Origin: Candidatus Rokuibacteriota bacterium
GTDB taxonomy: Bacteria; Methylomirabilota; Methylomirabilia; Rokubacteriales; CSP1-6
DNA length: 64,000 nucleotides
Assembly: GCA_003221515.1 (NCBI GenBank)
Contig: QHSI01000097.1
Coordinates: 1 to 64,000 of the forward strand
Direction of reading: 5' to 3'
Numbering within the stretch: the stretch's first letter is position 1; each line of letters opens with the position of its first letter. This document shows, in pieces, positions 35,323-45,629 of this stretch. Position numbers and translations under genes: made by a program. The notes beneath the pieces are model-generated. The model saw only the letters and a list, made by a program, of their open reading frames with translations. It was not told where the DNA came from and did not search any database.

Positions 35323-35750
35323 ACCTCGCACCCGTCACGCTCGAGGGGCGCTACATCACGCTCGAGCCGATCGCCGAGCGTCACGCGGCCGGCCTCTTCG
35401 AGGCGATGCAAGACGAGGAGGTCTGCCGCTACCTGGCCTGGACCCCGCCCCGCGCGATCGACGAGACGCTCGAGCTGATTCGCCAGGCCGAGGGGCTGAT
35501 GGCCCGGCGCGAGTCGATCGTGTTCGCGCAGGTGTGGCGCGAGACGGGCCGTGCGATCGGCTCCACGCGTCTGCTCGACGTGCGCCCGGCCGACCGTCAG
35601 GTCGAGATCGGCTCGACCTTTCTCGCCCGCGAGTACTGGCGCACGCCCGCCAACACGGAATCGAAGCAGCGCGACACGGTCTACTTCTCCATCCTCGACA
35701 CCGAGTGGCCTTCGGTTCGCTCGCGTCTCGCGGCTCGTCTCTACGCTTAG
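35319..35750 (+). pseudogene. GNAT acetyltransferase with internal in-frame deletion
   Basis: The 143 codons match a RimJ/RimL-type GNAT family at both ends: LAPVTLEGRYITLEPIAERH at the start and RDTVYFSILDTEWPSVRSRL at the end. In the family about 55-60 residues lie between the segments ending WRTPANTESK and starting RDTVYFSI; here they are joined directly as ESKQRDTV. The missing part holds the acetyl-CoA-binding strand and helix, so the product should be inactive. The only available start is CTG 35319, overlapping the CoA-transferase stop (CTGA). An R2 element begins five bases after the stop. Confidence 0.65.
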
Positions 35751-35755
35751 CGGCG

Positions 35756-35931
35756 CCGGCGCGGGTAGTGGCTGTGGTGGAGGGTGGGCGGGGTCGCGAA
35801 ACCACGCGGCACGCGTTCGCTGCCCCGTCGCGGCTGGGCTCCATCCAAGCGCTGGTGCGCCCGCCGCATCCTTGGAGAGAACGGGTTTCTCGACCCCGCC
35901 CACCCTCCACCACAGCCACTACCCGCGCCGG
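35756..35931. repeat. R2 element, copy B: conserved core in a perfect 41-bp inverted repeat
   Basis: Arms 35756-35796 and 35891-35931 are perfect 41-bp reverse complements. The 94-bp core (35797-35890) is in the same orientation as copy A and shares AACCACGCGGCACGCGT and GCGGCTGGGCTCCATCC with it. The core ends (GAAACC and GGTTTC) also pair, extending the stem past one mismatch. The arm sequence is unlike that of A or C except for the inner GGGGTCG. The element starts six bases after the end of the GNAT remnant. Confidence 0.88.
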
Positions 35932-36070
35932 TGTCACCGTCTTCGGCGCCCCGTGGCGGAGTCGAATTGATTGCGTAGACCATGCGGCGCCCTCGGCTGA
36001 ACCTGCGGCGCGCCGATTCGCGATCGCGTCACCGCCCGTCTCTATGAGTCAGTTCTACGACTACGGTTGT

Positions 36071-36237
36071 CGTGGCCGAGGGCGCCGGGGATGGTGGGGA
36101 GGGGTCGACGAAACCCGTTCCCTCCGAGTGGCGACGGGCCTGCAGCGCCCGGATGGAGCCCAGCCGCAAAGGGGTAGCGGACGCGTGCCGCGTGGTTTCG
36201 CGACCCCTCCCCACCATCCCCGGCGCCCTCGGCCACG
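36071..36237. repeat. R2 element, copy C: inverted core in a perfect 37-bp inverted repeat
   Basis: Arms 36071-36107 and 36201-36237 are perfect 37-bp reverse complements. The 93-bp core (36108-36200) is in the opposite orientation to copies A and B (it reads ACGCGTGCCGCGTGGTT on this strand). Copies B and C lie 139 bp apart, head against head, in a 544-base region with no intact gene. The right arm ends 15 bases before the citramalate synthase -35 box. The 139 bases between B and C hold no feature I recognise. Confidence 0.88.
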
Positions 36238-36252
36238 TCGCCATAGCGATTA

Positions 36253-36282
36253 TTGACACCCGGCGAGGGGCGGGGGCATGAT
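36253..36282 (+). promoter_or_regulatory. Promoter of citramalate synthase
   Basis: TTGACA (36253-36258), 18 bases, then CATGAT (36277-36282). The ATG lies 12 bases beyond, so the 5' leader would be only about five bases long, too short for a ribosome-binding site. Confidence 0.5.
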
Positions 36283-36294
36283 CGGCGGTACGCG

Positions 36295-37875
36295 ATGCGA
36301 CGGCTGATCAAGATCTACGACACGACGTTGCGAGACGGCACCCAGGGCGAGGGTGTGTCGTTCTCGATGGAGGACAAAGTCAGGCTCGCCACCCGTCTGG
36401 ACGCGCTCGGCATCCACTACATCGAGGGCGGTTGGCCGGGCTCCAATCCAAAAGATTTGCGGTTCTTCCGGCGGATGCAGGACGTCGCGCTCAAGCACGC
36501 GAAGCTCGCGGCCTTCAGCATGACCCGCCGCGCCGGCGGCAACGCCGATTCGGACGCCAACATGCAGGCGCTCCTGGAGTCGGGCGCGCCGGTGGCCACG
36601 ATCGTCGGCAAGTCGTGGGACTTCCACGTGACCGAGGCGCTCGGCACCACGCTGGCCGAGAACCTCGCGATGATCGGTGACACGCTCGCGTTCCTCCGGC
36701 CCCGGATGGACGAGGTGCTGTTCGACGCCGAGCACTTCTTCGACGGCTTCCGCGCCAACCGCGAGTACGCGCTGGCCACGCTGAAGGCCGCGGAGGACGC
36801 GGGCGCCCAGTGGCTCGTGCTGTGCGACACGAACGGCGGCACGCTGCCGACCGAGCTGGCGGCGATTCTGCAGGCCGTGAAGAAGCACGTGCGGGCGCCG
36901 CTCGGGATCCACGTGCACAACGACGCCGAGTGCGCGGTGGCGAACTCGCTGGCCGCGGTCACCGAGGGCATCGGCCAGGTCCAGGGGACGTTCAACGGCT
37001 TCGGCGAGCGCTGCGGCAACGCCAACCTCGTGTCGATCATCCCGAGCCTGATCCTCAAGATGGGGCTCGACTGCATCCCCGAGCCGAACCTCCGCGAGCT
37101 GCGCGACGTCTCCCGTTTCGTCTCAGAGCTGGCCAACCGCACGCCGTGGTCGGCGCAGCCCTACGTCGGCGACTCGGCCTTCGCGCACAAGGGCGGCATG
37201 CACGTGTCCGCGGTCCTCAAGCACCCGGAGACGTACGAGCACATCGACCCGCAGGCTGTCGGCAACCACCGCCGCGTCCTCGTGTCCGAGCTGGCCGGCA
37301 AGTCCAACGTCCTGTGGAAGGCGCGGGAGTACGGGATCGACATCGACCAGGACACGCCGGACTCGCGCCGGATCCTCGAGCAGCTCAAGGCGCTCGAGGA
37401 CCAGGGATTCCACTTCGAGGGCGCCGAGGCGTCGTTCGAGCTCCTGATGGAGCGGGCGCTCGGTCGCTATCGTCCCTACTTCGAGCTGCAGGCCTACCGC
37501 GTGATCGTCGAGGAGCAGAACGGGGACGAGGAGCCCGTGGCCGAGGCGACCGTCCGGGTGCGGGTGAAGGGAAGCATGGAGCACACCGCCGCGTCCGGGA
37601 ACGGTCCCGTCAACGCGCTCGACCACGCCCTCCGCAAGGCGCTGGAGGAGTTCTACCCGAACCTCAAGAGCATGCAGCTGCTCGACTACAAGGTGCGCAT
37701 CCTCGACGAGTCGAAGGGCACCGCGGCCAAGACCCGCGTGCTGATCACCTCGGGTGATGGCGACGAGACGTGGGGCACCGTCGGTGTCGCCGACAACATC
37801 ATCGAGGCCTCGTGGCAGGCCCTGGTCGACTCGGTGGAGTACAAGCTCCGCCGCGACGAGCGATCGCGCGCCTGA
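36295..37875 (+). CDS. cimA: Citramalate synthase
   Basis: A 526-residue enzyme of the isopropylmalate/homocitrate synthase family. Residues 1-290 are the HMGL-like barrel with [19 protein letters not shown] at the start, [16 protein letters not shown] near residue 203 and the GERCGNANL motif; the C-terminus has a LeuA-type regulatory dimer domain. [13 protein letters not shown] is typical of the CimA (TIGR00977-like) branch, which makes citramalate from pyruvate and acetyl-CoA for isoleucine synthesis. Isopropylmalate synthase is less likely given that motif and the length. The gene is monocistronic with its own promoter. Confidence 0.88.
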
Positions 37876-44342: not shown

Positions 44343-44695
44343 AGATCATCTTCTGGCTGCTCGTCGCCGTCGGCTGCGTCTACCTCTTCTACTCGGGCGG
44401 GATGACCGTGTGGTCGTATCTGGAGGTCAAGGGCGTGGTCGAGGACGTCGTCGCGGAACGAGCGCCGAAGAGCGAGCGGATGTATCGGGCCACCCAGGTC
44501 AAGGAAGACATCGCCAAGCGGGTGGCGGCGAGCGGGATCAAGGTCGCCGACCGCGAGATCTCCGTCGAGGACGAGGGAAAGACGCTCGACGTCCGCGTGC
44601 GGTGGAACTGGCCGGTGATCGTCTACAAGGGCGACGAGATCTGGGGGATCCCCCTGACGCACGAGCGCACCTTCTCGGTCCCCGAGAAGCGCTGA
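44339..44695 (+). CDS. Single-pass membrane protein, DUF4845-like
   Basis: A 118-residue protein with one N-terminal membrane helix (KIIFWLLVAVGCVYLFYSGG) and a soluble remainder that ends in a beta-rich segment (LDVRVRWNWPVIVYKGDEIW). The pattern resembles the DUF4845 family of unknown role. It is coupled to the DtxR gene by an ATGA overlap, so it may be metal-regulated. It is convergent with the ccm operon, 22 bases from the ccmI stop. Confidence 0.7.
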   Translation: MKIIFWLLVAVGCVYLFYSGGMTVWSYLEVKGVVEDVVAERAPKSERMYRATQVKEDIAKRVAASGIKVADREISVEDEGKTLDVRVRWNWPVIVYKGDEIWGIPLTHERTFSVPEKR

Positions 44696-44717
44696 TCAGC
44701 GTCCCCGGGCGGTGTCC

Positions 44718-45629
44718 TCACCGCCCCGCGCGGGCGTCGGCGATCATCTTCGCCACGCGGTCGCGGTCTTCTCCGGGCGGCGCCAGCGCCATGAACTTCT
44801 CCCACGAGCGGATGGCCCCGCCCACGTCCTTCTTCACTTCGTAGAGCACCTGGCCCCGGTAGAGGAGCGCCGGCAAGTAGCTCGGGTCGATCGCCAGCGC
44901 CTTGTCGAAGGTCTCGAGCGCGCGGTCGGCGTGCTCGGGCCCGCCGCCGATCGCGACGATCAGCGCCAGGTGCGTCATCGCGTCCACGTTCTTCGGGTCG
45001 CGCTTGAGCACCGCCTGATAGGCGGCGATCGCCTCGCCGTAGCGGCCCGCTGCCAGACTCGAGCGCGCGGCCTGCAGCATTCCCCGCAGGACTTCCGGAG
45101 GGACCACGCGGCCACCTGAGCTCGATGGCGGTGGCGTCGACTCCGGTGGCAGCGCGGCCAGCGGGCGAGAGCCGGTCTGAAGTTGTCCGGCCATCGGGTC
45201 GGGCTCGGTGTAGCGGACGACTCCGGCGCCGAGCGCGACGCCGAACGCGACCAGGAGCACCGCGAAGGTGCCGAGCGCGAGCGGATGGCGCCACGCTGAG
45301 CCGCGCGGCGCGGTCGCTTCGACCCGCGGCGGCTCGGGCTCGACGGTGCCGAGCCGATCGAGCTCACCCAGGATCACCGCCGCCTCGCCCTCGTAGCGGG
45401 CACGCAGGTCGGCGAAGTCGGCATCGGACACGTGGCCTGCCGCGTGCTCGAACTCGAGCTCACGGAGCGCCGCGAACACGGCGCGCTTGTCCTCGCCGAG
45501 CTGCTGGCGGCGGTCGAGCGGGAGCGGGAGGAACGTCCGTCCGCCCGCGTCGCGGCGCAGGAGTGGCCAGAGCGCGAAGAGAAGCGCGGGCGCGCCGACC
45601 ACGACCGAGACGACGACGACTCCCGTCAC
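44718..45629 (-). CDS. ccmI: Cytochrome c biogenesis protein CcmI (TPR)
   Basis: A 303-residue protein. An N-terminal helix (residues 1-20) and the CcmI signature LGEDKRAVFAALRELEFEHA near residue 44 are followed by a second membrane helix (115-138) and C-terminal TPR units (GRYGEAIAAYQAVLKRDPKN, KALAIDPSYLPALLYRGQVL). CcmI holds apocytochrome c for haem ligation by CcmF/CcmH. It ends the ccm operon and its GTG overlaps the ccmH stop. Confidence 0.85.
   Translation of the reverse strand: MTGVVVVSVVVGAPALLFALWPLLRRDAGGRTFLPLPLDRRQQLGEDKRAVFAALRELEFEHAAGHVSDADFADLRARYEGEAAVILGELDRLGTVEPEPPRVEATAPRGSAWRHPLALGTFAVLLVAFGVALGAGVVRYTEPDPMAGQLQTGSRPLAALPPESTPPPSSSGGRVVPPEVLRGMLQAARSSLAAGRYGEAIAAYQAVLKRDPKNVDAMTHLALIVAIGGGPEHADRALETFDKALAIDPSYLPALLYRGQVLYEVKKDVGGAIRSWEKFMALAPPGEDRDRVAKMIADARAGR

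Follow-up and report, generated by a model that had tools for sequence, protein, structure and literature searches.

Inverted palindromes beside cimA in a Candidatus Rokuibacteriota genome: two copies of a probably mobile, MITE-like element

Between a GNAT acetyltransferase gene and cimA, the genome of a Candidatus Rokuibacteriota bacterium carries two long palindromes with opposed cores, and their position raises the question of whether they serve the neighbouring genes or are mobile elements that settled there. A preliminary description had recognized in them two copies (B and C) of a repeat termed R2, lying 139 bp apart in opposite orientation, and had proposed that the pair forms a hotspot, that the palindromes caused a deletion within GNAT, and that they insulate or terminate transcription towards cimA. 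The arrangement itself is confirmed by the following features of the window (the whole stretch of 64,000 nucleotides that was analysed):

35756..35931, + strand: R2 copy B (arms and core), beginning 5 nt past the GNAT stop codon
35780..35905, + strand: core of B as modelled (R1), 105.9 bits
35756..35803, + strand: left arm of B, G-rich, 98% complementary to 35884-35931
35884..35931, + strand: right arm of B, C-rich
35932..36070, no strand: spacer between B and C, 139 bp
36071..36237, - strand: R2 copy C, core inverted relative to B, its end 15 nt short of the cimA -35 box
36094..36217, - strand: core of C as modelled (R1), 128.2 bits, the top match in the genome
15032..15207, + strand: R2 copy A, of the same family, elsewhere in the window
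35325..35750, + strand: GNAT acetyltransferase gene (PF13302) with 153 bp missing in frame, junction 35666/35667, start approximate
35747..35750, + strand: GNAT stop, TTAG, which is CTAG in relative G002 (without B); likely landing site of B
36253..36282, + strand: cimA promoter-like site (TTGACA, 18 nt, CATGAT), its TTGACA box also present in the 6 relatives read
36295..37875, + strand: downstream gene, called cimA in the preliminary description

The distances first reported hold as well: B begins 5 nt after the TAG at 35748-35750, within one of the six bases originally given, and C ends 15 bases before the TTGACA at 36253-36258. The arms of B are 48 nt each and 98% complementary, those of C pair over 37 nt without mismatch and over 44 nt at 98%, and the two cores form an inverted-repeat pair (I1) of 69 nt at 90%. 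Folded as DNA, B has a shuffle z-score of -14.4, and C, folded as RNA, one of -11.9; since 0 of 200 shuffles were equally stable in either case, a chance origin of the two hairpins is excluded.

In R2 elements a conserved core of about 110 bp is bracketed by two arms, the left one rich in G and the right one in C. A covariance model (R1) was built on 30 cores, in whose alignment (A1) 32 of 127 columns do not vary at all and a further 30 show conservation of 90% or more; copies A, B and C, all three in its training set, match it at E 7e-23, 1.7e-22 and 1.1e-27. The model matches 32 places in the window's genome (G000) and is matched in 26 of 57 genomes of the taxonomic family, comprising 9/9 of the window's genus and 11 of 24 genera, with at least 62 matches in G029 alone; the other 31 genomes, often entire genera, have no match. 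A strict core pattern was found in at least 95 stretches of genome_contigs, and the 80 listed are all titled Rokubacteria or Rokuibacteriota. One strict pattern had 0 matches in IMG/VR, and a viral origin was rejected on that count. Open reading frames of 64-89 aa overlap R2 elements, as expected in G+C-rich DNA. No published description of the family was found in the literature searched (open-licence papers only).

Watson-Crick pairing holds for 93% of aligned arm positions (5000 of 5388 pairs, from 124 elements). Left arms of the window's genome, compared copy with copy, reach a mean local score of 15.6 (406 pairs), against 13.8 when their own letters are shuffled and 45.6 for an arm and its own partner; shuffled arms serve as the control here, replacing a column-by-column version that was no real control. 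The small excess between copies is a weak shared G-rich pattern. With near-unrelated arms around a conserved core, the copies therefore share the core and the palindromic form, and hardly any arm sequence.

We consider it very likely that R2 is a non-autonomous, apparently gene-less, MITE-like palindromic element of Rokubacteria that targets CTAG and whose arms would be kept matched by template switching. This reading draws on direct observations: the ends and their CTAG, orthologous sites that are empty, autonomous elements whose ends match, a stop-codon bias and paired arm changes.

Ends, target and insertion sites

Seven recent copies in G032 and G033 share their arms and stop abruptly at CTAG on both sides. 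Their boundary is CTAG followed by TGTCCCGTC..GAAGTCATGTTAA at one end and the inverse followed by CTAG at the other, that is, terminal inverted repeats. A strict motif for this end occurs 42 times, in 7/7 genomes tested (0 for the reversed control), mostly as two inverted motifs some 245 bp from each other with a core in between. The repeats common to recent copies in G032, G033, G078 and G020 are the terminal inverted repeats of an IS630 element, L362 of G070: this intact element of 1145 bp, from a genome of the taxonomic family that lacks R2, has the same ends as R2, with CTAG on both sides, and encodes an IS630 transposase of 352 aa (248 bits, cut-off 100). R2 copies of another set, found in G029 and elsewhere, have ends that resemble CCYGGGTTATTCATGA together with CTAG; these match the ends of an IS1380-family element of 1692 bp in G025, and G029 holds both kinds of ends on the same core (L223 versus L231 and L232). 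No close relative of the G070 transposase was found in the genomes with recent copies bearing IS630-type ends (G032, G033, G078, G029 and G021, all fragmented drafts), nor any IS1380 match in the fragmented draft of G029.

Other elements in these genomes have comparable ends. Four small ones (L279, L281, L302 and L307, in G007, G021 and G029) carry IS1380-type ends and CTAG and no full R2 core; from their sequence they appear to be other MITEs sharing the IS1380-type ends. Two IS481-family elements of about 1.18 kb (L330, G032:C116; L331, G078:C77) have CTAG at both ends and termini that are partly R2-like (TGTCC..., GTGTTGACACTT). IS481 was rejected as the source of the main ends (CTAG + TGT), as L330 and L331 match them partly and the IS630 element L362 far better. 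The idea that the core derives from the interior of an IS was rejected as well, since comparison with nine IS loci gave nothing better than E 0.06.

Occupied and empty orthologous sites differ in gap length by 223 versus 27 bp (L012/L041) and 221 versus 73 bp (L076/L053), and L135 holds an R2 copy at a site that is empty in the window (about 44670-44740; 216 versus 53 bp). Deletion derivatives that retain the ends and have lost the middle include L272 (43 bp with its CTAGs), L248 and L276, and R2 persists at corresponding positions in genomes whose flanking sequences are 82-94% identical.

Empty sites also bear on the proposal that the core inserts into the tip of an existing hairpin or replaces a hairpin, as PMC5678879 reports for IS1272, the arms then being target sequence. 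Copy-specific arms would be explained in this way, and the empty site L063 does hold a long hairpin; but in 9 of 13 empty-site comparisons 40 or more of 200 shuffles did as well as the arm of the element, in 2 others 13 of 200 did, and none did in the last two, L110 and L058 (which resembles a core-deletion remnant); moreover, the arms of recent copies move along with the element. The 13 comparisons leave insertion into, or replacement of, a hairpin unsupported, and we judge it highly improbable.

On the MITE-like reading, a recent copy measures about 240-260 bp and has CTAG at either end, followed inward by a terminal inverted repeat and then by a variable arm that matches its counterpart on the other side, with the core of about 110 bp in the middle. 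Its insertion at CTAG would be carried out in trans, by an IS630-type transposase for one set of ends and an IS1380-type transposase for the other. Copies in the window's genus would be old, having mostly lost their terminal repeats and CTAG while their arms stay paired as the sequence drifts. B and C have no recognisable terminal repeats and no CTAG on both sides; CTAG stands 30-130 bp out on both sides in only 1 of 29 elements of the window's genome, and within 140 bp on both sides in 32 of 170 distinct elements overall.

Neighbouring genes were called for 115 copies: in 107 cases one or both of them end toward the copy, and just 8 copies are flanked by divergent genes. Where a gene ends no more than 130 bp from a core, its stop is TAG in 61 of 117 cases, against 113 of 437 for other genes at the same loci (Fisher p 1.6e-7); for CTAG the corresponding counts are 40 of 117 and 46 of 437 (Fisher p 5.9e-9). 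R2 is often found at stop codons because its target CTAG contains TAG and is uncommon here. A preference of IS630 for the TA within CTAG was reportedly described by Tenzen and Ohtsubo in 1991. Duplication of TA is mentioned in PMC2170065, and, according to PMC6794481, the CTAG-targeting IS481-family transposon TnRErm46 supplies TAG stops and leaves genes uninterrupted.

Pairing of the arms

The same position just past stop codons, rarely between divergent genes (8/115), could point instead to a structured RNA acting as a 3'-end stabiliser, terminator or insulator, whose arms co-vary through selection on an RNA stem; extreme folding energies, the existence of compensatory changes and orthologous retention between genomes with 82-94% identical flanks agree with it. 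An RNA stem, however, should tolerate far more G.U pairs than are seen: G.T mismatches in the arms are as rare as A.C mismatches (96 versus 125 of 5388 pairs), also where both neighbouring genes run on the + strand (42 versus 47), and neither strand shows a G.U bias in the pairing of the arms. This equality does not agree with selection acting on a single RNA strand, and an RNA stem under selection was rejected for the absent bias. No terminator-like site (stem with T-tract) occurs within B or C, and the window has 0 Rfam matches at the gathering score; only sub-threshold matches were obtained, the best to a microRNA family, and since microRNA matches fit any long hairpin an RNA family identity was rejected too. 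The CTAG target accounts for the stop-codon position, and at one locus (L075/L118, below) the core is flipped. For cimA in particular, the TTGACA box is present in all 6 relatives shown, 5 of them without R2 there, and the insertion of C therefore left the box intact. The terminator or insulator role first suggested for the pair thus finds no support in the sequence, which has neither a T-tract nor a G.U strand bias and retains the box where R2 is missing; a structured RNA is in our estimation decidedly improbable.

How the arms remain paired under the MITE-like reading is seen in orthologous copies. Arm changes are 10 paired and 0 single-sided for L061/L084, 6 and 2 for L061/L018, 6 and 3 for L087/L104, and 9 and 1, plus 2 double non-pairing changes, for L086 and window copy A. 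Over the whole set of orthologous pairs, paired changes number 107, single-sided ones 212 and double unpaired ones 39, the excess of single-sided changes coming mostly from poorly aligned pairs, while well-aligned orthologs have mostly paired ones. Template switching can create and repair stems in single events, as set out in PMC8794818. Within the palindrome it probably keeps the arms matched; the simplest account would be that one arm is corrected from the other. At L126:1430-1600, the left half of an R2 core recurs, inverted and diverged, in place of the right half, which is what a template switch would leave.

Conversion between copies, or fast change within the hairpin, is probably also at work, because some orthologous cores are no more alike than random copies: in L037/L133, with flanks 94/92% identical and the left arm alike, core similarity is 0.80, equal to the background mean of 0.80. 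In four further pairs (L042/L010, L063/L110, L090/L115 and L135/L140) neither core nor arms score above background, and the copies there may have inserted independently. L075/L118, the same locus in two species, has a core flipped relative to flanks that are 92-93% identical, with scores of 0.91 for the core (99.4th percentile) and 0.71 and 0.73 for the arms (87th-94th percentile). Judged from this alignment, the core can apparently flip in place; frequent flipping was rejected, L075/L118 being the only clearly supported case.

The cimA locus and inverted pairs

The cimA locus was compared in 16 relatives' loci, and GNAT was located beside cimA by motifs in six relatives (G002, G005, G007, G009, G012 and G029). 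Two GNAT motifs lie 57 nt apart in the window and 210 nt apart in 6/6 of these relatives; the internal segment said to be missing from GNAT has indeed been lost, by a 153-bp in-frame deletion. Among the genomes compared, the deletion is confined to the window genome, which alone has B, and GNAT is intact in all six relatives, including G002 (no R2 at this locus) and G007 (decayed C only). The proposal that the palindromes caused the deletion is compatible with this, as only the B-bearing genome is affected, but the cause is unproven: this is one single event, with its junction (35666/35667) inside the gene and 89 bp from B.

Of the 16 relatives' loci, a single one yielded an R2 core at cimA, the decayed C of G007, which lacks B. 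G002, the nearest relative by DNA identity at the locus (92%), has neither B nor C; its GNAT is intact and stops with CTAG, and a different sequence lies between GNAT and cimA. Because the decayed C sits at the same place in G007 without B, C is probably older at the locus than B, and because the GNAT stop is CTAG in B-free G002, B probably landed on that stop. Read in this way, B would have inserted at the GNAT stop CTAG when C was already there. In the G002 locus (L162, G002:C108), about 1.5 kb of other sequence occupies the GNAT-cimA interval where the window has B and C, and by eye it resembles an opposite-strand hydrolase/adenylate-cyclase gene.

The hotspot is supported by recurrence. 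Ten inverted R2 neighbour pairs (the window, L011, L012, L040, L138, L179, L221, L349, L351 and L354) were found in four genomes of the window's genus and one of another genus, and all are convergent (+ then -), none divergent; 10/10 corresponds to p ~0.001 if the loci are independent (non-orthology assumed). A further pair, G003:C535, obtained by the model search and outside the motif search, is also convergent. Two further neighbour pairs are tandem, both in the local array L244 (G007:C60:59300-60900), where three R2 cores in the same orientation with repeated flanks form a local tandem duplication.

The members of some pairs are sister copies: L040 (ranks 1 and 1), L012 (2 and 4) and, on one side, the window, where the core nearest to B is that of C (85%, rank 1 of 189). 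A sister-copy origin for all pairs was rejected, as it fails for L349, L354 and L221. The closeness of B to C, together with an AAACC/GGTTT variant that both have beside the core, would also suit a single inverted duplication, or an assembly artefact, in place of two insertions. For C, however, B ranks only 9th, B and C have unlike outer arms (local score 16, against 29-66 for own arms), G007 has a decayed C without B, and convergent pairs recur elsewhere, and we give such an origin little chance.

The core and comparable elements

Against the MITE-like reading count the ends missing from the window's own copies, the absence of a matching transposase from the draft genomes with recent copies, the summed excess of single-sided arm changes and the core, which an ordinary MITE has no reason to keep across genera and on two kinds of ends. 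One response is that the core is a DNA site used by the host, for instance by a chromosome or recombination protein, that was spread by transposition and then kept for its function. The conservation (62 of 127 columns invariant or at least 90% conserved in 30 copies), the identity of the core on two end kinds and the fixed pair orientation (10/10 convergent) speak for such a site, but 31 of 57 genomes of the taxonomic family have no match, presence varies among relatives (a core at cimA in 1 of 16 loci), and no trans-acting factor has been identified; we regard it as improbable. Another, which we advance as a speculation that is somewhat unlikely, is that the core, and not the ends, is the inherited unit, carried by the ends of two unrelated transposase families that have only the CTAG target in common, with arms repeatedly re-templated into near-perfect palindromes whose G-rich sequence is arbitrary and the core selected as the tip of a DNA hairpin. 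As such it would be recognised by some factor, or would act in cis on its own mobility or maintenance.

MITEs of the IS630/Tc1-mariner family resemble R2 in having no obvious gene, repeats shared with an intact IS630 and insertion at the TA in CTAG, but R2 has a long core unrelated to the IS compared and self-complementary arms that outlast the terminal repeats. IS1380-family MITEs resemble R2 of the G029 type in the CCYGGGTTATTCATGA-like ends and CTAG, as in the G025 IS1380 element, but the core there is the same as in IS630-type copies; with the same core on both end types, the ends do not tell the descent of the core. REP elements occupy a 3' position and are several times shorter than R2, and mitochondrial hairpin elements have variable stems; we know of no conserved core with a CTAG target in the latter. 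REP/REPIN and BIME are, like R2, extragenic palindromes in alternating or inverted arrangement (PMC2817692 and PMC3116915), whereas R2 has CTAG and terminal repeats, and the sponge RHE and double-hairpin elements of mitochondria are likewise invading hairpins (PMC2800124), but are organellar. TnRErm46 (IS481) shares with R2 the CTAG target giving TAG stops and ends that begin with TGT, as described in PMC6794481; unlike R2 it is autonomous and carries cargo, and the IS481 ends in G032 and G078 are only partly similar. R2 is unusual for a MITE-like family in combining a conserved core, copy-specific matched arms and two kinds of ends.

For the annotation of the window, B and C are to be entered as mobile-element copies and not as regulatory parts of cimA, and CTAG targeting explains repeats after stop codons without invoking gene regulation. 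One core travels with the ends of two transposase families by way of their common CTAG target. The family amounts to many natural replicates of the evolution of a long DNA palindrome, in which paired arm changes without a G.U excess, at the same locus in related species, bear on template switching versus RNA selection. If the core is indeed the inherited unit, R2 would be a mobile element that preserves a structure and a core rather than its full sequence.
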